Below the pieces are notes generated by a model, which was not told where the DNA came from, ran no database searches, and worked only from the letters and a program-made list of their open reading frames with translations. DNA of 64,000 nt from Parapedobacter tibetensis (GTDB lineage Bacteria > Bacteroidota > Bacteroidia > Sphingobacteriales > Sphingobacteriaceae), in NCBI RefSeq assembly GCF_024704835.1, contig NZ_JAMXBE010000003.1, positions 248,001 to 312,000 of the forward strand. Direction: 5' to 3'. Positions 46,066-55,972 of this stretch are shown here, one piece after another. A program made the position numbers and the translations under genes. Each line of letters begins with the position of its first letter. The first letter of the stretch is position 1.

Positions 46066-46968
46066 TTAGTTTTTCGTGATATCAAGAAATAGGTTTTCCA
46101 GGTCTTTCCTTTGGTGTTGCAGGGAGAACACAGTAAATCCATGGTTGACCAGCAAGGTATTTACGCGCCCCATCTCTTCCTGGCTATTGAAAGGTACGTT
46201 CAGAAATCCGTCCGAAGCGGATATCAAAAATCCTTCTTGGGTAAGAAATTCGCCCGCTTCGGCAAGCCTATCCACCCCGATACGCACCAGGCTTGCATTG
46301 AGTGCATGCAGCTCATGTATACTTCCTTGGAAGAGGAGTTTGCCTTTATTGATAATGCCCACATGTGTGGCCATCTTTTCCACTTCGGCAAGCAGGTGAC
46401 TGGAAACAAAGATGGTTTTCCCTTGGTTTTGGGCAAGGTCTTGTAGCAATTCACGCACTTCGATAATGCCATTGGGATCAAGGCCGTTTGTGGGTTCATC
46501 GAGGATTAGCAATTCCGGATCAGCAAGCAGCGCAAGGGCTATCCCTAAACGCTGCTTCATCCCTAGCGAATAGTTGCTGGCTTTCTTTTCAGCTGCCTGT
46601 TCCAAGTCTACAAGCTTAAGCAATTGCTGTACATTCTTCTTTGGGACACCGAGAAGCATCGCCCGGTTGGTGAGATTTTCCCTACCGCTGAGGTGCCCAT
46701 ATATAGCGGGTTGTTCCACTAGTGAACCTACACGTGATAAAATCCCAACCCGCTTGGCATTCAGTTCTTGCCCAAACAGATAGATATTCTTTTCTCGGGT
46801 ACGCAATAGATTGAGCAGCAATTTGATGGTTGTCGTCTTACCTGCCCCATTGGGTCCAAGAAAGCCATATATGCTACCCTTAGGCACTTGTAATGATACA
46901 TTGTCTACCACTTGTTGTGTGCCAAAGCGGAATTGGAGTGCCTGTGTTTCTATGCTATAATCATACAT
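46066..46968 (-). CDS. ABC transporter ATP-binding protein (BcrA type)
   Basis: 300 residues. Walker A in GPNGAGKTTTIKLL, signature YSLGMKQRLGIALALL, Walker B LLILDEPTNGLDP, H-loop VSSHLLAEVEK, and a C-terminal extension of the BcrA/CcmA drug-exporter type. It is transcribed toward its permease. The upstream region (47057-47162) carries a strong -33/-7 promoter with a 19-base dyad between the boxes and then a terminator, so expression is probably gated by a repressor and/or attenuation. Confidence 0.93.
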   Translation of the reverse strand: MYDYSIETQALQFRFGTQQVVDNVSLQVPKGSIYGFLGPNGAGKTTTIKLLLNLLRTREKNIYLFGQELNAKRVGILSRVGSLVEQPAIYGHLSGRENLTNRAMLLGVPKKNVQQLLKLVDLEQAAEKKASNYSLGMKQRLGIALALLADPELLILDEPTNGLDPNGIIEVRELLQDLAQNQGKTIFVSSHLLAEVEKMATHVGIINKGKLLFQGSIHELHALNASLVRIGVDRLAEAGEFLTQEGFLISASDGFLNVPFNSQEEMGRVNTLLVNHGFTVFSLQHQRKDLENLFLDITKN

Positions 46969-47056: not shown

Positions 47057-47163
47057 AAAAAAATGAAAGGTTTCCAAACGGGGAGAATGGAAACCTTTAC
47101 TAACCAATTATAAACCTAAATTATGATGGCACAAAGATAGTGTATTTTCTACACTATGCAAAA
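47057..47163 (-). ncRNA. Promoter-operator-terminator module, copy 1 (candidate ~70-nt RNA or attenuated leader)
   Basis: Read on the minus strand: TTTG (47162-47159), 19 bases, TATCTTTG (47139-47132), predicted start near 47125, then a 10-bp hairpin AAAGGTTTCC/GGAAACCTTT (47098-47066) with a 13-base loop and seven T (47063-47057). The dyad TAGTGTA-N5-TACACTA (47156-47138) fills the promoter spacer, as for a repressor site. The ABC transporter starts 89 bases beyond the terminator. A near-identical module lies at 54846-54964. Confidence 0.7.
47138..47156. promoter_or_regulatory. Operator-like dyad, copy 1
   Basis: TAGTGTA-TTTTC-TACACTA, a perfect 7-bp inverted repeat between -33 and -7 boxes. 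AGTGTA...TACACT half sites are known for YtrA-type GntR repressors, which often govern ABC exporters; no gntR gene is in the window, so the regulator is inferred. Confidence 0.6.
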
Positions 47164-47248
47164 TAAATTTTCACTTTTTTTATCTGCTAGCTATTATCAC
47201 CATTCGAGGTATGCAGAATACCCTATATGTATGGCAAGATATTCTCTT

Positions 47249-50200
47249 CTATCTCAATCGCTTACCAAAACTAAATGCCAATAGCAATAACAATCCCAAT
47301 CCAATTAAATAGCGACTATCCACAGGAGTATGAGCGGGCAATGCCTTTGGCTTTTTGTCTGGAGAATCCCTCAAAGTCTCTTCCATTTTAAACCCACTCA
47401 CTATATTTTCCGTCGCTTTGGCGTCAGACTGATCTTTCACCTGTGGCCTTTCCCTTGCTGGGGATTGTTGTATAGGCGGTGGTGGTTGTATTGACTGTGA
47501 TGGCTGTTGGCCAGGGCGAGGGGCAACGCTACCCACGGCTGGTTGCTGCTGTATATTCCCCAGCCGGTCTATGAGGTTGTTTACCAACTTCGTTGATATG
47601 CCATTGTCTACCCTGCCTACGATGTATTCGGTAAGCGCTTCATTCCCGCAGACATTTTCAGCGCAGGAAAGGCCCGTGTCCTCCATTGTTTGCAGGTAGG
47701 CGTCTATGAGTTTATCCATTACCTGTTCATCCGGTTTCCAATATTCCTTGCGAACCACCTCAATCATTCGGGCCAGCATGGTTTGGTAGGCATACGTGTT
47801 ATTAGCATCGGCGAATTTCTGCCTGATATCTAACTCATATTTGTCAGCAACATAGGTATCATACCACTGTTGCCATTTCTGTTCGTCAATCGCCTCCGGC
47901 ACCGTCACCTGCCATCCCCACATGTTATCGACCACCCGGCCTACCATACGTGCTCCAGCATAGCCTTCATCCAGCATTTCCGTAATCCATTTGGGATTGA
48001 GGTACCGTGTATTCAGTTCCCTTCCAAGGAATTTATCCAAGCTTTCTTGGCGCAGGGCATTGGGGTCAGAAAGATTCGTTACCACCACTTCTGGGGAAGA
48101 ACCATCTACAGCACGTATCGCCATGGCTGCGCCGCCGAGGTACTGGAAGAAATCATCGTTGTCCAGCGCACCATACACATTGGAGGATCGACTATGAAGC
48201 ACCGTCTTCGTACCGGCCAATGTCTTTTTGAAGAGGCCGATGACCAAGTCCTTTGCCGTTTGTCCTTCATCGGCAATGATATCCCGGTCGCCCCAAAATC
48301 CCTGTCCGTAAAGGTGACCCATGCGGTTGAAATACACGGATGACACCTGTCCTTCATCGTCCCATTTAGCTGATGCTTGGATAGCATCGTTCAGTCCGGT
48401 GCCATAGGCGCCGCTAGGCACACCGAATAAACGCACCGACGCCATGCGTTTGGCGAGCGCTGTATCGCGGATGCCTTCAGCAACAAGCCGGTTCATCGTG
48501 GTATCAATGTGTTGGCGCACGAAGTTGGTCGGCTCATCCTGTTCATAAGCCAGCGCCACGGCTTGGTCGAGCAGATGCATCAAGTTGGGGAACATGTCGC
48601 GATACAAGCCAGAGGGCAGTACTACCACATCGATACGGGGTCTTCCCAAACTATCTTGTGGGATGGCTTCGAGTCCTTTCACACGGCCAAAGCCATCGTA
48701 CCCAGGCCTGATGCCCAGCAGGTGCAAAATCTGGGATTCCATGATGCCTTCATGCCGGATGGTCTCCACGGACCAGAGGTTGATGGCCACTTTATCGGGG
48801 TATTGCCCCTCATGCCGCTGCTGATAGTCATCAATAAGCTGCCTGGCCATGCTGGCCCCCGCTTGATAAGTGTCTTCCGTGGGGATACGGGAAGGGTCAA
48901 ACGCAAAAAAGTTTTTGCCAGTGGGCAGGGCATCGGGATTTCGGATGGGATCGTTGCCCTGTCCCGCCCGGATATACCGTCCTTCCAAGGCGCTCATCAG
49001 TGCATCCATCTCGCTTTGTCCGCTGACCATTATCCGGTGAAACATATCTTCCATTAGCTCTTCGCGGGCTTTGGGCGATAACTGTTGCTGTCTACTCGCA
49101 ATGGCCGCCGCTGTTTTTTGAGCCTTGGCCGAATCGGGCGACATCCCAAACGTATGCAGGCCCATTGGGGTTTGGTTTTCGTTGATTTCCTGCAGGTAAT
49201 GTTCTAGCTTTTCAATATCCGCTGCAGCGAACCCTTGCTCCATCCCAAGATCTTTATGCAAGCCTGCGGCTTTCGCCAGTCGATTAATGGTAGCCAGGTG
49301 GATTTCGGCCAATGCGGGGCTCTTCTCCATGGCCGCGCTATAGTCGTTGATTACTCCGGCGAGCTCCCGTAACTCGGGGTTCATTCCCGCTTGGTCGAAA
49401 GGAGGCGTCATGTGGTCGATGATGACGGCCATGCCTCTGCGTTTGGCTTGGGTACCTTCACCCACATTGTCTACGATGTACGGATAGATATTCACGAGGT
49501 CTCCGATTAACGCCTCGGATGCGTCGTCATCATCAAAGCCAACCTCCCTGCCCGATAGCCATTCGTGCGTGCCATGGGTACCTAGATGTACCACGGCATT
49601 CACATCCAGCTCGTGTTGCAAATAAAGGTAAAAAGCGATGTATTGATGGTGAGGGGGTAGTGTAATGTCGTGGAATAGCGCTTCCGAATCTTCATCCCAT
49701 CCCCTGGCCGGCTGGGGCATCAGGTGGATGTGGCCATACTGCACCCTTGGCAGCACAAAAAAGCGCTTACCCGAGGCGTCTTCCCACACCATAATCCGGG
49801 CTTCCTCCGGGGCACCCCATTTATCAAGCACCTGCTGTTGTAGATGGGGATGCAAGTCTGCAAACCACCTCTTATATGCCTCAATAGGCACCAGCACCGG
49901 ATTTGTTTCTTTCACTAGGCGATCGAGCTCGGCGGGTGCCCAAGAGCCGATGTTGCGGCCGCTATCCATCACTGCACCATAGATTGCCTCTCCCGTTGGC
50001 GCATCGTCTCCCAAGTCATATCCTTCCGCCTGGAGGCGATTCAGGATATTTTCCATGCTTTGGGGTAATACATTGAGGTAGCTGGCACCGATATTGTTTT
50101 TGCCCGGGTGCCCGTTGTAATAGACAATGGCCACCTGTTTGCCTTCGTTTGACTTCTGTTGCAGGCGTGTCCAAGCCTGAAGCCTGCCCACCAGCCGCTT

Positions 50201-51253
50201 TACCCGACTTGCAATGGCCACTTTGGTTTTATATTGATGGCCTGTTCCATCATCCACCTGCTCCATGCTACTGGCCACGAAGGGTTGGATCTGTCCAGAA
50301 AGTTCGGGTCGGGCCAGCGCCATGGTCCGCGAAAACACGGAGAGCCCCTGTGGCGATTGCCGCCATTCGTCAGCGGTTTCAGCGATATTGATGGCATTGA
50401 TGACAGGTACTCCCAGCCGTTCGAAGGCTTCTTGCAGCACTACGGTAGACGATCCCGGCAGCGACGAGAACGATACAAGGGCCGCCACGCGTGAGGTGCC
50501 ATCGTCATCAAGGCAGAACGCGTCGATGGCCTTATCCAATGGATAACCATAGAAAGGTAGCACATTGAATCCCGCGGAATCAAGTGCGGCAGCATAAGCC
50601 TGTATATGCTCCAACTGCCGTGTAACCACCTCATAGCGGAAGGTATACAAGCCTATCCATGGTGCCCCGAGCTTAATCCGGATGCCGGAATTTTGATAAT
50701 CGGCAAAGCGGTCATACACCTTGCCCGTTTCGAAAGCAAACAGCCCGCTTTCTGGCAATTCCTGCACTTCGGCATAAGGGTATGGGCTGTCGAAGTGGCG
50801 ATGCAGCAGGAAAAGCAGCATATTCTTGAGGTTTTCGGGACTGGGGTGTTCGAAATACCGGGCCACATCCATATCGAACCGTATCCCTTGTTTTTTGTAC
50901 GCCTCTTCTTCGGGCGTAGTACCCACGGCATAGCAATGGGCACCACGGGTCAAGGCCGAGCGCAATGGCGCATTGAACCGCTCGATCACCCCTCCAGCAT
51001 GTACATAACAAACCACGAGGTCTGCCGTTGCTAAGCCTTCGCTTTCAGCTGCTGTAACAACTGATACGTGGTAGTCATCAGCAAAGCCGGGCAGTGCTTC
51101 AAGTTCCTTTATCGCCTCATGTGCTGGTTTTCCGTAGTTTTCGGTTAATAGTAAGCTCACTTTTTTTACTTGCTGCGTCATTGCACCGAAACCGTAGCCA
51201 AGCAAAGCCAGCAAGACAACCATGGCTATAAAGGGTGATTTATTCGTCATCAT
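47249..51253 (-). CDS. hmuS: CobN/BchH-like chelatase of the haem-uptake operon (HmuS type)
   Basis: 1334 residues of the CobN/ChlH/BchH large-subunit family (VNAVVHLGTHGTHEWLSGREVG, NLWSVETIRHEGIMESQILHLLGIRPG, EDEPTNFVRQHIDTTMNRL-type stretches). It has an N-terminal signal/anchor (SPFIAMVVLLALLGYGFGAM) and, after a Pro/Gln-rich linker near 1250-1300, a C-terminal membrane helix (YLIGLGLLLLLAFSF). Membrane-tethered CobN-like proteins beside a TonB receptor, an ExbB-like protein and DUF2149 are the HmuS proteins of Bacteroidota hmu loci, linked to removing iron from haem. ATG overlaps the DUF2149 stop (ATGA), so it is translationally coupled. Confidence 0.88.
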   Translation of the reverse strand: MMTNKSPFIAMVVLLALLGYGFGAMTQQVKKVSLLLTENYGKPAHEAIKELEALPGFADDYHVSVVTAAESEGLATADLVVCYVHAGGVIERFNAPLRSALTRGAHCYAVGTTPEEEAYKKQGIRFDMDVARYFEHPSPENLKNMLLFLLHRHFDSPYPYAEVQELPESGLFAFETGKVYDRFADYQNSGIRIKLGAPWIGLYTFRYEVVTRQLEHIQAYAAALDSAGFNVLPFYGYPLDKAIDAFCLDDDGTSRVAALVSFSSLPGSSTVVLQEAFERLGVPVINAINIAETADEWRQSPQGLSVFSRTMALARPELSGQIQPFVASSMEQVDDGTGHQYKTKVAIASRVKRLVGRLQAWTRLQQKSNEGKQVAIVYYNGHPGKNNIGASYLNVLPQSMENILNRLQAEGYDLGDDAPTGEAIYGAVMDSGRNIGSWAPAELDRLVKETNPVLVPIEAYKRWFADLHPHLQQQVLDKWGAPEEARIMVWEDASGKRFFVLPRVQYGHIHLMPQPARGWDEDSEALFHDITLPPHHQYIAFYLYLQHELDVNAVVHLGTHGTHEWLSGREVGFDDDDASEALIGDLVNIYPYIVDNVGEGTQAKRRGMAVIIDHMTPPFDQAGMNPELRELAGVINDYSAAMEKSPALAEIHLATINRLAKAAGLHKDLGMEQGFAAADIEKLEHYLQEINENQTPMGLHTFGMSPDSAKAQKTAAAIASRQQQLSPKAREELMEDMFHRIMVSGQSEMDALMSALEGRYIRAGQGNDPIRNPDALPTGKNFFAFDPSRIPTEDTYQAGASMARQLIDDYQQRHEGQYPDKVAINLWSVETIRHEGIMESQILHLLGIRPGYDGFGRVKGLEAIPQDSLGRPRIDVVVLPSGLYRDMFPNLMHLLDQAVALAYEQDEPTNFVRQHIDTTMNRLVAEGIRDTALAKRMASVRLFGVPSGAYGTGLNDAIQASAKWDDEGQVSSVYFNRMGHLYGQGFWGDRDIIADEGQTAKDLVIGLFKKTLAGTKTVLHSRSSNVYGALDNDDFFQYLGGAAMAIRAVDGSSPEVVVTNLSDPNALRQESLDKFLGRELNTRYLNPKWITEMLDEGYAGARMVGRVVDNMWGWQVTVPEAIDEQKWQQWYDTYVADKYELDIRQKFADANNTYAYQTMLARMIEVVRKEYWKPDEQVMDKLIDAYLQTMEDTGLSCAENVCGNEALTEYIVGRVDNGISTKLVNNLIDRLGNIQQQPAVGSVAPRPGQQPSQSIQPPPPIQQSPARERPQVKDQSDAKATENIVSGFKMEETLRDSPDKKPKALPAHTPVDSRYLIGLGLLLLLAFSFGKRLR

Positions 51254-51591
51254 TCTCCTTCCGGCACATAAATGATCTGTCCATCTTCCAGCTGGTAAGC
51301 TGTACCAAGCCGTTCTCCTTTGCCCGAGGCTTCCTCGGGAGTAAGTTTCTTCACCTTAATTTCCTTCCCTTTTTTGGTGATGATTTCCATCTGCCCATTG
51401 GCGTTCTGCTTGGTGACGGTCACTTCCGTATTGGGGTCAAAAAGATCCAGCATATTGAGGGCCGAGATGAGTGCAAAAATCATCGCCACAATAAGTACTA
51501 CACTTACGTCAAACAGATTGGCTACTCCGCTGATGGGATCTTCAAGAGGTTCCTGCCGGCCTTCCATGCGGCTATTGGTCAACAGCTTCAT
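51250..51591 (-). CDS. DUF2149 membrane protein of the haem-uptake operon
   Basis: 113 residues from ATG 51591, which overlaps the preceding stop as ATGA; the open frame extends to 51648 but the overlap decides the start. One membrane segment (VSVVLIVAMIFALISAL) and a short periplasmic domain. The layout is like ExbD/TolR, and it is paired with a MotA/TolQ/ExbB-like protein, so the two probably form a small proton-driven motor unit dedicated to this uptake system. Its own stop overlaps the hmuS start. Confidence 0.86.
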   Translation of the reverse strand: MKLLTNSRMEGRQEPLEDPISGVANLFDVSVVLIVAMIFALISALNMLDLFDPNTEVTVTKQNANGQMEIITKKGKEIKVKKLTPEEASGKGERLGTAYQLEDGQIIYVPEGE

Positions 51592-52202
51592 CGTACCATA
51601 TTTTCTTCTTCCACGGCTATCGCTTCTTTTTCCACGGGGACATTCCACTTATCGGAAGGAGCAATTTCGCGCAGTCGTGTCTCCACATATACCTCGCAGG
51701 CCAGGAAATCGGCATGCAGCCATTTTTCCTTGCCCAGGGCGATAAGGTAAGCGATGGTGCCACAAGTGATGCCCACAATAGTGGATGTAAATGCCGTAAC
51801 CATGTTTTCAGACATGGCCGTCATGTCGCCAGACGAGAGTGACGCCAAGGCATGCCCCATGGGAATCAGCGTGCCCACAAGCCCAATGGAAGGACCCGCT
51901 TTGATCATGAAACGGATGTTATCCAAGCGGTTGTTCAGCTTTTTTTCCCATCGCCTTACCATTTCGGTGAGCCGGATATCCGCATACTTCGGATTGCGCA
52001 AGATTTCCGCAATCGATTCATCGTGTTCTTGCCGAAAGACCCGCAGCCGCTGGCTTCCTTTGCGTTTATGATCTATCCATTCACGGAGGAATATACCTAA
52101 TGAAATGGTTGTCCAGCATACCATGGCAAATAGTGCCAGGAATATGGGCAGGAATAAAAAGGAGGTTAGTTGAAAGAGGAAATGATCAAGAAATGCTATC
52201 AT
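51588..52202 (-). CDS. MotA/TolQ/ExbB-family proton channel protein
   Basis: 204 residues with three membrane segments (FLFLPIFLALFAMVCWTTISL; SIGLVGTLIPMGHAL; FTSTIVGITCGTIAYLIAL), in the TolQ/ExbB arrangement with the cytoplasmic stretch between the first two. GPSIGLVGTLIPMG is the family signature. Co-coded with DUF2149 (4-base overlap) and the TonB receptor (5-base gap). It likely energises this receptor or the CobN-like protein rather than serving as the general ExbB. Confidence 0.92.
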   Translation of the reverse strand: MIAFLDHFLFQLTSFLFLPIFLALFAMVCWTTISLGIFLREWIDHKRKGSQRLRVFRQEHDESIAEILRNPKYADIRLTEMVRRWEKKLNNRLDNIRFMIKAGPSIGLVGTLIPMGHALASLSSGDMTAMSENMVTAFTSTIVGITCGTIAYLIALGKEKWLHADFLACEVYVETRLREIAPSDKWNVPVEKEAIAVEEENMVR

Positions 52203-52207
52203 GGATG

Positions 52208-54529
52208 TTAAAGTTGGTAACTGATGCCCGTAAAAAATGTACGCCCAGGCGCATAATAATAACTTGTTGGCGACGAATAGCTGCCGTAATATTGTTTGTC
52301 AAATAAGTTCATCACATTGAGGTTGATGGATACCGGCCCAACTGATTTACCCAATTTCAAGTCAAATACGGTAACAGCTGCCATCGTTTTATCCGGCGTG
52401 TTTTCCAGATCTCCATAATGGCTGCCGGTATGCCTTGCCCAAGCGCTTAGGTGAAACCAGCGAGTCTTGTCAAAAACCACAGCTCCCGATAGGCTATGCT
52501 TGGGATTATCGTTCATCTCCTTGCCCTCATATTCCGGATTGGTTTCATAACGTATGATTTCCGAGCGGTTGTGGAAATAACTGGCTTGCAGGGAAAGCCC
52601 ATCGCCGATGCGATAACGTACAAAGGATTCCAACCCTCGAAGATTCACCTTACCGATGTTGATGTATTGCCTTACGGGCAGGTTGCCAGGGTCGAAATAG
52701 GAAGGTACCTCGCTGCGGTCTATCAGCACACTGGTCAGAAAGTCGCTATACTGCGAAGCATATACCGTCGCAGAAATTTCAAGGCGGTTGCCAAGTTGGA
52801 AATCTGCACCGAAATCTACGGAATAAGCCATCCGTTCCGGTTTGAGCGACGGATTCCCGAGCCGGAAGGACGTGCCCAACGGTGTAGCATTGTACAGGTA
52901 ATAACTACTTGGTGCCTTGAAACCGGTGGCGTATACCGTGCGGAGCCTGAAGTTAGGCAGGAAGTCGTAGGTCAGCCCCAGCTTCGGGGTAAATATATCG
53001 GACGAAGCGTCATCATATGTGATATCGATCGCCTCGCCAGACATGTTATCAAAAAAATGTCCCTGTTTGTTGCTCCAATGGTCAAAGCGTAACCCAGCGT
53101 TCACATGGAGCCGCTCACCGATACTGATATCATCGTTGAGAAAAAAAGATATGAAATTCTGGTTTCCAGAAAAATCCTGATCGCCTTGGCCATAATAGAA
53201 TTTATGCGATTGTACCTTGGTAAACCGGAGGTCGGCCCCTAGGGTAATGGAGTTGCCGTACCAGGTTTGGTTTGCTTTGGCAATCAACCCATAAGTATCT
53301 AAAGGCACTTCCGAGTCGTAATACCTGTTGTCAAAAGCCCGAGATTCCGCGTTCCACCTGAATGAATTAGATTTGCGGTCTTGGCGATTGTAATAAGCAA
53401 TGATTTCAGGTTTAACCTTTGCCTGGTCGTCCGCGTAGCGGAGTTGGAAGTTTCCTGTAGTGGTGCGGTCGTCGTAGATGGTTGATGTGCCCGACTCCGG
53501 TTGCTGGAGGTTATAGTCGGCAATGGCCGTAAAGGTACCACCCACCGGCAGGTCATAGGCAAGTTTTGCATTCACATTGAGCAGCTCCATGCGGGGTTTC
53601 TGATAATAGCTTTGCCATAAGCTATCGGCCATGTAGGCATATCCATCCGTCTTCTTATACTCGGCAAAGGCGATGGCTCCCCACCCATTGCCAAAACGTT
53701 TGCCGGCCTTTATGTTGGTTTGGAAGGTATTCATCGAGCCGTACCGTAGATCTGCCCCGAGCACAGGTCTATCACCAGGGCTTTGTGTGACCAGGTTTAC
53801 GGTACCTCCCATGGAGCTCGACCCATAGATGGAAGAACCCGGCCCCCGCACCACTTCGATGCGTTCAATGCTGTTGCTGGCAAGGCTGTTCCACTCCGAT
53901 ACCCCTCCCGTATAGGAATCGTTAATGGGCACACCGTCTTTGAGGATGAGTGTGCGGTTTGCCGATCCGGTACCCCGCAGCACGATGCTCGTATGGGCAC
54001 CAGTGGTGGTGAGGCCTCGACTGCGATCCACGGCCACACCGGGCAAGTAACCCAATGCTTCATCAATGGTTTGGATTTGGCGAAGCTCCGCATCGCTCTG
54101 CTTTAATACGGATACACTGGAAGCGATTTTACGAAGCTGCATGGGTGTTGCTGAGGCTGTAACGGAAACATCGTCCAGCAGCGTTGTCTTAGGCACCAAA
54201 AGCCAGGTATAAAGCGAATCCGCTGAAACTGGGGATGGCAGCCGTACATCAAGTGCATTATAGTTTACATGGGTTACTGCCAGCCTTCGGCTTTCTCCCA
54301 ATGCAATCCAAAACCTGCCCTCCGAATCCGTGGCCGCGCGGGGTCCCTGCTGTGCTACCGTTATGGTCGCCCCGGGTATACCCACACCCGAAGCATCGAC
54401 AATGCGCCCCTGGATGAATTTGTTTTCCGTCCGCTGTGCATACAACTGTTGAAAGGTTAGCGCGAGGACCAGCAAACACCACGCGGCGCCTCGGAAGTGT
54501 TTGTAAATAGCATGTAAGTAAGGTATCAT
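52208..54529 (-). CDS. hmuR: TonB-dependent receptor of the haem-uptake operon (HmuR-like)
   Basis: 773 residues from ATG 54529 (the frame is open to 54601; the later ATG gives the signal GAAWCLLVLALTFQQLYAQ). CarboxypepD_reg-like domain at about 35-110 (QGRIVDASGVGIPGATITV), plug with SSVSVLKQSDAELRQIQTIDE and ERIEVVRGPGSSIYGSSSMGG, then a barrel ending FFTGISYQL. First gene of the operon with ExbB-like, DUF2149 and CobN-like genes, which points to haem or a related metallo-tetrapyrrole as cargo. No HmuY haemophore gene is present. Confidence 0.88.
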   Translation of the reverse strand: MIPYLHAIYKHFRGAAWCLLVLALTFQQLYAQRTENKFIQGRIVDASGVGIPGATITVAQQGPRAATDSEGRFWIALGESRRLAVTHVNYNALDVRLPSPVSADSLYTWLLVPKTTLLDDVSVTASATPMQLRKIASSVSVLKQSDAELRQIQTIDEALGYLPGVAVDRSRGLTTTGAHTSIVLRGTGSANRTLILKDGVPINDSYTGGVSEWNSLASNSIERIEVVRGPGSSIYGSSSMGGTVNLVTQSPGDRPVLGADLRYGSMNTFQTNIKAGKRFGNGWGAIAFAEYKKTDGYAYMADSLWQSYYQKPRMELLNVNAKLAYDLPVGGTFTAIADYNLQQPESGTSTIYDDRTTTGNFQLRYADDQAKVKPEIIAYYNRQDRKSNSFRWNAESRAFDNRYYDSEVPLDTYGLIAKANQTWYGNSITLGADLRFTKVQSHKFYYGQGDQDFSGNQNFISFFLNDDISIGERLHVNAGLRFDHWSNKQGHFFDNMSGEAIDITYDDASSDIFTPKLGLTYDFLPNFRLRTVYATGFKAPSSYYLYNATPLGTSFRLGNPSLKPERMAYSVDFGADFQLGNRLEISATVYASQYSDFLTSVLIDRSEVPSYFDPGNLPVRQYINIGKVNLRGLESFVRYRIGDGLSLQASYFHNRSEIIRYETNPEYEGKEMNDNPKHSLSGAVVFDKTRWFHLSAWARHTGSHYGDLENTPDKTMAAVTVFDLKLGKSVGPVSINLNVMNLFDKQYYGSYSSPTSYYYAPGRTFFTGISYQL

Positions 54530-54586
54530 ATAGAAAACAATTATTACTAGATAATGATCGAGCTTTTTATAAAGCAACTGGGTTGC

Positions 54587-54594
54587 AAATATAG
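54587..54594 (-). promoter_or_regulatory. Possible -7 box of hmuR
   Basis: TATATTTG matches TAnnTTTG, with GTTG about 18 bases upstream. It would start transcription near 54580, about 50 bases before the hmuR ATG. Confidence 0.4.
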
Positions 54595-54845
54595 AGATCA
54601 ATATTTAAATGCAACTATGTTTCTTTTAAAAATATTTATGGATTATTATGATTTGACTTTTTAGACAGCCCCTTTTGAAGATGGAAGCAATGCCGGCAGA
54701 CAAGCCATGGACTATCGGAAAACCGAAAGCTAAGGCAATAGCCTTCCCATCCATATGGTTAAAAACAGGAAGGGGCGGACCATTATTAAATGAGTGAAGG
54801 GTGCTATTACTGCTGAAAAAACGACGGAAGGTTTCCAATACGGTT

Positions 54846-54964
54846 AAAAAACGAAAGGCTTCCAAACGGGGAGAATGGAAGCCTTTACTAACCAATTATA
54901 AACCTAAATTATAAACCTAAATTATGATGACACAAAGGTAGTGTATTTTCTACACTAAGCAAAA
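54846..54964 (-). ncRNA. Promoter-operator-terminator module, copy 2 (candidate ~70-nt RNA)
   Basis: Minus strand: TTTG (54963-54960), 19 bases, TACCTTTG (54940-54933), dyad TAGTGTA-N5-TACACTA between the boxes (54957-54939), then hairpin AAAGGCTTCC/GGAAGCCTTT (54886-54854) with a 13-base loop identical to copy 1, and six T (54851-54846). Relative to copy 1 one stem pair changes from T-A to C-G on both arms, keeping the pairing. A 13-base tandem duplication (ATAAACCTAAATT) lies between promoter and hairpin. It is transcribed toward hmuR, whose ATG is about 315 bases past the terminator. Confidence 0.7.
54939..54957. promoter_or_regulatory. Operator-like dyad, copy 2
   Basis: The same TAGTGTA-TTTTC-TACACTA sequence as at 47138-47156, again between -33 and -7 boxes, so one regulator should control both modules. 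Confidence 0.6.
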
Positions 54965-55154: not shown

Positions 55155-55898
55155 TTAGTACAACACCGTTATCGAGCCTTTGAGTGTTTCGCCACGCGTC
55201 GTGATGATGGTGTAATAATAAGCCCCCACCGGCACCCGTTGCCCTTTATAAGTACCATTCCATGGCGTAGCATATCCTCGTGAACGAAATACTTCCTGAC
55301 CGTTGCGATTGAATACCGCCACCTGCGCCTGTATATCTTCTTCAAGCCCACCTATTACCCACACGTCATTGACGCCATCACCATTTGGTGAAAAGGTGTT
55401 TGGAATGATGATCTCCTTGCAGTATGGCCGCACCTCAAATGTGGCAGTGGTGGTACATCCGTTTTCGTCCTCCACTTGCAAGGTATAGCTACCCGGACTG
55501 GATATGTCAAAATACGGACCGCTGATACTGCCATTCCAGTAGTAAGCGGCGTATCCTGGCGGTGCCACGATGTGTATTACCTCGCGCTCCGCAGTACAGA
55601 TTACGGTATCCGGGATGAACGGTGCCGTCAGCGGCTCGTACATCTCCACGATTATACTCGTCTCATCCGTGCAACCGGCCGCATTGGTAAGCGTCTGCGG
55701 GGCACCATCCACCCCCTGCCATTGACTGCGGGCACCCATTTTTAAATCCACATAACGCTCGATACCGGCCACGGCCGGGTTGGCCAAAAAACCATTAAAA
55801 ATGTATTGCGTATACTGGGGGCGCTGCTGCGCTTGTACCCCTATGCAAGCATAGAGCAAAAGGGTAAGGATAACTAGGCCGGTTGATCGTATGTACAT
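55155..55898 (-). CDS. Chimeric PorP/SprF N-terminus joined to a type IX (CHU_C) sorting domain
   Basis: 247 residues from ATG 55898 (signal STGLVILTLLLYACIGVQAQ). Residues about 25-75 (RPQYTQYIFNGFLANPAVAG, then ARSQWQGVDGAPQTL) are the start of a PorP/SprF gliding/type IX outer-membrane protein. The rest changes to an adhesin-type end: YWNGSISGPYFDISSPGSYT, then the type B sorting domain IIIPNTFSPNGDGVNDVW ... FNRNGQEVF ... GQRVPVGAYYYTI. The joint is near residue 75 at PQTLTN-AAGCTDET. Such proteins are normally separate neighbours, so this looks like a deletion fusion. A functional product is doubtful though the frame is intact. Confidence 0.75.
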   Translation of the reverse strand: MYIRSTGLVILTLLLYACIGVQAQQRPQYTQYIFNGFLANPAVAGIERYVDLKMGARSQWQGVDGAPQTLTNAAGCTDETSIIVEMYEPLTAPFIPDTVICTAEREVIHIVAPPGYAAYYWNGSISGPYFDISSPGSYTLQVEDENGCTTTATFEVRPYCKEIIIPNTFSPNGDGVNDVWVIGGLEEDIQAQVAVFNRNGQEVFRSRGYATPWNGTYKGQRVPVGAYYYTIITTRGETLKGSITVLY

Positions 55899-55972
55899 AC
55901 TGTCTATAAATAGACAACAATGATAATCATAAATCAATTTATTGCCTAAAGTTATGGCATTATTTATTTAAT

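Follow-up and report, generated by a model that had tools for sequence, protein, structure and literature searches.

A putative multicopy family of trans-acting small RNAs in Sphingobacteriaceae with predicted pairing to SusC start regions

Introduction

What is encoded by a module of promoter, dyad, and hairpin that stands, nearly unchanged, on both sides of one operon? This question is raised by a 64,000-nucleotide (nt) stretch of the Parapedobacter tibetensis genome (positions 248,001 to 312,000 of contig NZ_JAMXBE010000003.1), the whole of which is referred to as the window. Sequence reading and self-comparison located two near-identical modules on the minus strand, copy 1 at 47057-47162 and copy 2 at 54846-54963. 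Between them lie genes for a TonB-dependent receptor, MotA/TolQ, DUF2149, and CobN, an operon that we take to be an hmu-like haem operon. An earlier note on this DNA offered two possibilities for the modules: repressor-controlled RNAs of about 70 nt or attenuated leaders, one for the ABC exporter and one for the haem operon. The results described here suggest that both repeats are probably copies of a multicopy family of trans-acting small RNAs, made from about a dozen genes, that pair with the start regions of SusC genes. Small-RNA control of SusC-type glycan uptake has been described for gut Bacteroides in the literature searched.

Two modules with the layout of small RNA genes

Ungapped alignment of the two copies gave 91% identity over 75 nt and 96% identity over 67 nt in overlapping blocks, which bears out the pair of promoter-dyad-hairpin modules described in the earlier note. 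Each module consists, in minus-strand order, of a TTTG box at -33, a spacer that is 19 nt in both copies, a TAnnTTTG box at -7, a 5' part (about 30 nt in copy 1 and about 43 nt in copy 2), an 11-bp hairpin, and a T-run. TAnnTTTG is a promoter consensus quoted in the available text of PMC7366714. The two stems differ by the change of a single T-A pair to C-G and the loops are the same (11 nt unpaired, 13 nt counting the closing pair), as the note had also stated. It had missed that 13 nt are duplicated in tandem in the 5' part of copy 2 (TTTAGGTTTATAA). Because of this duplication the RNA from copy 2 would be about 80 nt rather than 70 nt. The note's reading of a short RNA of about 70 nt with a terminator at its end is supported by the sequence. 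The 5' part of copy 2, with its duplicated 13 nt, could pair in two registers. Transcription of copy 1 would be expected to start near 47125-47128, and the outermost two bases of its -7 box lie within the dyad. The hairpins have folding z-scores of -3.26 and -3.37, and the exact dyad occurs three times in the 6-Mb genome versus none for the reversed control pattern. The repeat is therefore not a product of chance.

Copies in the P. tibetensis genome and covariation of the stem

Covariance model R1, built from five P. tibetensis copies aligned without internal gaps, had 12 matches in the genome at E<=1, and model R2, built from the 12 R1 copies, had 13 matches at E<=0.1. Weaker matches (C18, C67, C6, C19, C10, C2, C34, and lower) were excluded from the copy count; C18 has an exact 17-nt core but no matching hairpin. 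The 5' core TTTATAATTGGTTAG is invariant in all 12 copies. All 11 stem pairs changed on both sides in the 12-copy alignment, in which 98.3% of cells were paired and the covariation score was 0.906 (shuffles scored 0.300 and slid pairings no more than 0.321), with the qualification that this alignment was fitted to the model and leans towards the model's structure. It replaced an earlier MAFFT and RNAalifold consensus fold of the 12 copies, which gave two-sided changes in none of 11 pairs. The contrast between single copies can be seen by eye (GGTTTCC/GGAAACC in one stem, GCCCCG/CGGGGC in another).

At least 12 copies in the P. tibetensis genome, together with the spread of the family in Sphingobacteriaceae, rule out a haem-specific module. 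Four of the 12 copies have the dyad (three exact, one with a mismatch), and the others have other promoters. The dyad stands between the promoter boxes, where a repressor might be expected to bind, but it does not define the family. In one copy (G000:C8:62383-62457, L016) the -7 box is closely preceded by another palindrome, CCATG-CA-CATGG, which suggests a different regulator. A group II intron match (RF02001) at L040:1310-1418 lies near the C39 copy of the small RNA.

Conservation in Sphingobacteriaceae

With strict filters and 88 candidates scored per genome, R2 had matches in 34 of the 60 genomes searched. These included all nine genomes of the genus Parapedobacter (9 to 24 matches each), 24 of 28 genomes of other Sphingobacteriaceae (1 to 16 each), and one of 23 genomes of other families. 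The exact 19-nt core was found in at least 119 stretches of the named collection, nearly all Sphingobacteriaceae by title, with Sphingobacterium, Parapedobacter, Mucilaginibacter, Olivibacter, Pedobacter, and Arcticibacter among the genera, and the core is near invariant across them. The exact dyad, written as TAGTGT-N7-ACACTA, occurs 32 times in the nine Parapedobacter genomes versus 4 times for the reversed pattern. The hairpin pairing and the dyad are thus conserved in relatives, the check that the earlier note had proposed for a functional module. Two Flavo-1 RNAs (RF01705; L177:4176-4258 and 799-879) were seen alongside the small RNA in one Sphingobacteriales bin.

When 126 copies were picked by the core alone, a hairpin came next in all 126 and a T-rich tail in 106. 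Their mean folding energy was -16.0 kcal/mol versus -7.1 kcal/mol at a distance of 300 nt. A C-run was in or beside the loop in 123 of the 126, with UCCCC in 56 loops and CCCAU in 53. One of the 126 (L117, labelled Archaeon HR02) has the core and a loop that is not C-rich; with this copy dropped from the placement count, 124 of 125 copies were intergenic.

Predicted pairing with SusC start regions

The sequence CUAACCAAUUAUAAACCUAAAUUAUGAAAAGA, the reverse complement of the small-RNA 5' end, resembles a Bacteroidota start region with its AUG. Pairing was evaluated with 60 SusC regions (TIGR04056 genes), the 30 best scoring of at least 56 in P. tibetensis and 30 from four relatives. These are best-scoring regions rather than a random sample, and the gene counts are lower bounds, with 56 of 176 candidates scored in P. 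tibetensis and 47 in each relative genome. The GTCTTTT-type seed had a mean duplex energy of -13.30 kcal/mol with the P. tibetensis SusC regions, versus -10.13 kcal/mol (standard deviation [sd] 0.75) for shuffled seeds, and -14.88 versus -9.77 kcal/mol (sd 0.82) with those of the relatives. The corresponding values for the w-type seed of the window copies were -12.35 versus -9.84 kcal/mol and -13.99 versus -9.52 kcal/mol. None of 200 dinucleotide-shuffled seeds reached the observed means with either seed type in either SusC set.

Pairing was also centred on the start codon when the duplex was free to form anywhere from -100 to +60, with 60 shuffled seeds as the control. The GTCTTTT-type seed covered the start codon in 40 of the 60 SusC regions (shuffled mean 16.0, maximum 31) and overlapped -25 to +6 in 47 (27.2, maximum 41); the w-type seed did so in 33 (16.1, maximum 27) and 40 (26.1, maximum 35), respectively. 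The 19-nt core alone overlapped -25 to +6 in 30 regions (20.0, maximum 29) and covered the start codon in 8 (5.4, maximum 13). The core alone is thus not clearly AUG-centred.

Individual candidate sites were also found. The best core match outside the family in the P. tibetensis genome is at the start of glgB, with one mismatch and a duplex energy of -26.5 kcal/mol; among the nine Parapedobacter genomes this site is strong in three (-26.5, -26.5, and -19.9) and intermediate in two (-16.7 and -16.5). The second-best match has two mismatches to the 17-nt core and is placed some 60 nt ahead of an NHL/TIG lipoprotein gene, after which comes a SusC gene. Further P. tibetensis sites are the start of a BNR-repeat gene, with a SusC gene next, and a SusC start with a repeated AACCAATTA. 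A start-region pattern search across the genus returned mostly the small RNA genes themselves.

A possible pairing partner of the CUCCC loop, GGGAG, is present from -100 to +60 in 11 of the 60 SusC regions and 1 of 60 reversed regions (19 and 14, respectively, for GGAG). A second contact is a possible explanation, as is chance.

Alternative explanations

The seed might instead have targets other than SusC, with the SusC match a by-product of the generic composition of Bacteroidota start regions. We consider this unlikely, although a number of observations weigh against the SusC assignment. The target evidence throughout is predicted pairing. A set of 110 control start regions, some SusC regions included, paired slightly better with the seed than with shuffled seeds (-11.16 versus -10.31 kcal/mol, sd 0.45). 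Near matches to the core with up to three mismatches were not in excess in the P. tibetensis genome (43, copies included, versus 48 for the reversed control), and 7- to 8-nt words of the core complement were not enriched at start regions; 10- to 12-nt words were in excess, but the loci were partly ascertained by antisense hits, and this result is not used as support. Good individual sites include, in addition to glgB, those of an ECF sigma factor and a deaminase-type gene, and the conservation of the glgB site is patchy, with no site in four of the nine Parapedobacter genomes. The P. tibetensis genome had no match to PF00076 (RRM_1), the family of a counterpart to the Bacteroides protein RbpB, in a search in which the control, Bacteroides ihuae, did match, and an open-licence literature search returned no expression data for these genera. 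However, the 60 SusC regions (mean, -14.09 kcal/mol) are set apart from 702 other regions (-10.46 kcal/mol for 313 and -10.23 kcal/mol for 389; p 1.2e-11 and 1.0e-13), with duplexes of -16 kcal/mol or better in 30% of SusC regions versus 5.8% and 2.8% of the two control sets, a gap that may in part reflect start calling because SusC starts were placed by a signal-peptide rule and control starts by the first ATG. The shuffled-seed and reversed-region controls are free of this problem. AUG-centred pairing exceeded that of all 60 shuffled seeds, and reversal of the SusC regions removed most of the effect for the GTCTTTT-type seed (-11.14 kcal/mol for P. tibetensis, -10.45 kcal/mol for the relatives), even though the reversed regions were still slightly better than the shuffles.

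The suggestion that the hairpins are regulated terminators in the 5' untranslated regions of the ABC exporter and haem operons, and thus cis-acting leaders or attenuators, has little probability. Both window copies do read towards the genes of these operons on the same strand, with the start codon about 90 nt (copy 1) and about 320 nt (copy 2) away. A leader would be expected to face its gene, yet the next downstream gene was convergent in 75 of the 117 named copies for which a downstream gene was visible, and several P. tibetensis copies face convergent or unrelated genes; for this reason the modules look, from their placement in the sequence, like stand-alone small RNAs rather than leaders. 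Nor did the 67 proteins flanking dyad-type copies have a family in common (the commonest was found in 6 of the 67), and the minimum-energy folds of the two copies contained no antiterminator, alternative folds not having been searched systematically. Within the window, the start regions of the neighbouring genes were not predicted targets (-7.7 kcal/mol for the haem TonB receptor, -10.4 kcal/mol for the ABC protein). With this placement in a multicopy family, attenuated leaders for these two operons, the second proposal of the earlier note, were set aside. Even less probable is a dispersed mobile or repetitive element without regulatory function, similar to miniature inverted-repeat transposable elements or repetitive extragenic palindromes. 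There are many intergenic copies per genome, often clustered, as such an element would predict, but the promoter half varies between copies while the 5' core hardly varies across genera, the stem is kept by compensatory changes, and the C-run of the loop is kept. A multicopy family of small RNAs predicted to pair with SusC start regions is the explanation that we prefer.

Features of the window

The coordinates of the modules and their neighbours are listed in Table 1. The flanking ABC exporter matched PF00005 and PF12730. The window stretch had no match to a known riboswitch or other Rfam family; an Rfam LhrC match at 47057-47119 was at chance level (E 8.5, 14.7 bits versus a gathering score of 110) and was rejected. 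The gene at 55155-55937, in which the beginning of a PorP/SprF protein runs into a CHU_C secretion signal, has the look of a type IX secretion gene that was truncated or rearranged.

Table 1. Module parts and neighbouring genes in the P. tibetensis window
Feature	Coordinates	Strand	Remarks
Copy 1 -33 TTTG box	47159..47162	-	Sequence read; 19 nt from -7 box
Copy 1 dyad TAGTGTA-N5-TACACTA (= TAGTGT-N7-ACACTA)	47138..47156		Between promoter boxes
Copy 1 -7 box TATCTTTG	47132..47139	-	Matches TAnnTTTG consensus
Copy 1 5' seed CATCATAATTTAGGTTTATAATTGGTTAGT	47099..47128	-	w-type; predicted antisense image of SusC start region
Copy 1 terminator hairpin with 11-bp stem and loop TTCTCCCCGTT	47066..47098	-	Fold and covariance model
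Copy 1 terminator T-run CATTTTTTT	47057..47065	-	Expected RNA 3' end
Copy 2 -33 TTTG box	54960..54963	-	Sequence read
Copy 2 dyad TAGTGTA-N5-TACACTA	54939..54957		Sequence read
Copy 2 -7 box TACCTTTG	54933..54940	-	Sequence read
Copy 2 5' seed	54887..54929	-	With 13-nt tandem duplication
Copy 2 terminator hairpin	54854..54886	-	One compensatory pair unlike copy 1
Copy 2 terminator T-run CGTTTTTT	54846..54853	-	Sequence read
ABC transporter ATPase (PF00005)	46066..46968	-	Neighbour outside module; weak predicted seed pairing
TonB-dependent receptor	52208..54529	-	Neighbour outside module; first operon gene; weak predicted pairing
MotA/TolQ	51588..52202		Operon with TonB receptor
DUF2149	51250..51648		Operon with TonB receptor
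CobN	47249..51253		Operon with TonB receptor

The dyad as a candidate operator

Nineteen of the 32 exact dyads in Parapedobacter end 12 bp upstream of a model match by hand count (25 bp in copy 2). Two others, in two genomes, stand in front of enolase and come just after a TAnnTTTG box (G000:C10:52428-52446, L001, and G005:C6:184466, L286), and five, in five genomes, precede a sodium:solute symporter (SSF) gene. Identification was by Pfam for one enolase and three symporters and by like sequence for the rest. Six dyads were without an assigned gene or copy. Sequence reading in Mucilaginibacter revealed the same half-sites with the same spacing, but overlapping the -7 box. The dyad positions fit a repressor, as judged from the sequence. 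The earlier note had pointed to a GntR/YtrA-type gene beside the copies. This finds no echo in the neighbourhoods: PF00392 (GntR) was not among the 23 families that matched at least two of the 67 proteins flanking dyad-type copies.

tRNA-like fusions in sister genera

A GGTTCGA T-loop precedes the core in 32 of the 126 named copies. Alignment of 29 of these sequences (A6; 108 to 121 nt) revealed a tRNA-like structure with a 7-bp acceptor arm, D and T arms, and a long variable arm, in Mucilaginibacter, Pedobacter, and Arcticibacter (for example, L104, L134, and L146); the alignment excludes L107, L161, and L182, whose acceptor arms were incompatible with it. Five such units are in tandem at L219:3983-5600. 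The structure as drawn has 100% of its cells paired and two-sided changes in 6 of 23 pairs; the D and anticodon-like arms are without variation and contribute none of these. ARAGORN found no tRNA genes in 27 fusion loci, and the Rfam tRNA family RF00005 had no match in the five fusion loci scanned. The loop in the place of the anticodon is almost invariant. The position after the would-be anticodon is G, C, or T, which by the tRNA rule for this position speaks against a decoding role. The small RNA starts directly after the acceptor arm in the fusions, and RNase P and the tRNA 3'-end machinery might release it. No GGTTCGA was seen upstream of the 12 P. tibetensis copies in the stretches examined.

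Comparison with known small RNAs

The earlier note knew of no described family of this shape. However, the FopS small RNAs of Bacteroides have the shape, with a differing sequence. According to the available text of PMC11697453, B. thetaiotaomicron has 14 paralogous FopS RNAs (12 to 15 paralogues per genome) of about 65 to 70 nt, each a 5' seed followed by a terminator; 9 of the 14 are intergenic, CAU stands opposite the target AUG, and translation of SusC is repressed at the start codon, an effect antagonised by RbpB, an RRM-1 protein. The small RNA described here resembles this description in paralogue number, length, TAnnTTTG-type promoter, single-stranded 5' seed, predicted CAU-AUG pairing, Rho-independent terminator, intergenic location, and SusC starts as predicted targets. 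The 12 P. tibetensis copies have the FopS layout of many paralogues of about 65 to 70 nt with an unstructured 5' part and a terminator, their length being that expected from promoter and terminator. By analogy, the small RNA may work like FopS with a recognisably different sequence.

The seeds can be aligned as GT.TTTTCATA.T.TTAG.TTTA....GGTTA..AAA, with a 4-nt insertion and substitutions. The alignment score was reached by 15 of 2000 shuffles for the GTCTTTT-type seed, 25 of 2000 for the Mucilaginibacter type, and 135 of 2000 for the w-type seed of the window. The Rfam FopS model RF04319 had no match in the window stretch at the gathering score, none in copy 1 at E<=10, and none at E<=10 in 11 of the 12 P. 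tibetensis copies; of 14 loci retrieved by the FopS seed as a positive control, 13 were above the gathering score. Conversely, R2 had no match in the 14 FopS-seed loci, whose loops are not C-rich, in contrast to those of the small RNA here. When the FopS consensus seed was paired with the same SusC regions, its mean was reached by 3 of 200 and 1 of 200 shuffles, indicating that the local seed is not alone in this preference. The variety of promoters, the TAGTGT-N7-ACACTA operator, and the tRNA-like fusions are not part of the FopS description in the available text of PMC11697453. FopS-seed copies were also seen beyond Bacteroidaceae, in plasmid-labelled Prevotella and Parabacteroides records and in Bacteroides phage BX-TP2 (H21-H40, L368-L381).

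GibS of B. thetaiotaomicron pairs through its 5' seed at start codons and represses the glucan-branching enzyme gene BT_0771, according to the available text of PMC7366714. This repression parallels the predicted glgB start site found here (-26.5 kcal/mol). GibS is a single gene that specifies a longer RNA. Compared by description rather than by sequence, it also differs in its two seeds (R1 and R2) and in its promoter type, as given in the available parts of PMC7366714 and PMC11697453. Multicopy sibling small RNAs are known outside this phylum; the discussion in PMC11697453 mentions LhrC of Listeria and Qrr of Vibrio. As in those systems, several near-identical RNAs here stand under separate promoters, but LhrC and Qrr belong to other phyla and have other targets and structures. 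LhrC has C-rich exposed stretches.

Proposed role and implications

The sequence evidence identifies a conserved multicopy element with a covarying terminator, a mostly stand-alone placement, and a predicted preference for pairing with SusC. From these features we infer its expression, the repression of its targets, the polarity and identity of its regulator, and a role in catabolite repression. Each module would be the gene for a trans-acting small RNA of about 65 to 80 nt. Its unstructured 5' end, UCAUAAUUUAGGUUUAUAAUUGGUUAG, would be complementary to the start of a SusC-type mRNA, with CAU opposite AUG, or alternatively to the start of the first gene in a SusC operon, and its 3' end would be the terminator hairpin with the conserved C-rich loop. 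Pairing would keep ribosomes from loading, and the uptake of particular glycans would thereby be switched off. About a dozen genes, scattered and differing in their promoters, would give rise to the RNA, and a subset that includes both window copies would be switched by a putative regulator binding at TAGTGT-N7-ACACTA. The candidate sites of the same regulator before enolase and the sodium:solute symporter suggest that the RNA may be raised or lowered with central sugar metabolism.

A broader proposal, which we advance tentatively and regard as possible rather than probable, is that two distant groups of Bacteroidota each have a dozen or more genes for RNAs with a 5' end that mirrors, in antisense, the consensus SusC start, forming one pool that throttles all glycan importers. 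In Sphingobacteriaceae, more than one input might set the dose of this pool: a sugar-linked repressor in common with enolase and the symporter, other promoters, and non-decoding, tRNA-like precursors. This might amount to RNA catabolite control free of RbpB, with the C-rich loop as a second contact.

The family is known in kind, as a multicopy antisense small RNA, and new in its identity, its range, and several features: the C-rich loop, the operator common to enolase and symporter, and the tRNA-like fusions in sister genera. No prior description of it was found in searches of the open-licence literature. It would supply a panel of candidate SusC and glgB targets, and the operator that it has in common with enolase and the symporter provides a handle on a putative sugar-linked regulator. 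If confirmed, production of a small RNA from tRNA-like precursors would be unusual. The likeness to FopS raises the question of whether RNAs directed against start sites arose once or repeatedly. If the proposed function is correct, the presence in Sphingobacteriaceae of a FopS-like family that reaches 24 copies per genome would turn the control of SusC-type glycan uptake by small RNAs into a more general principle of the phylum.

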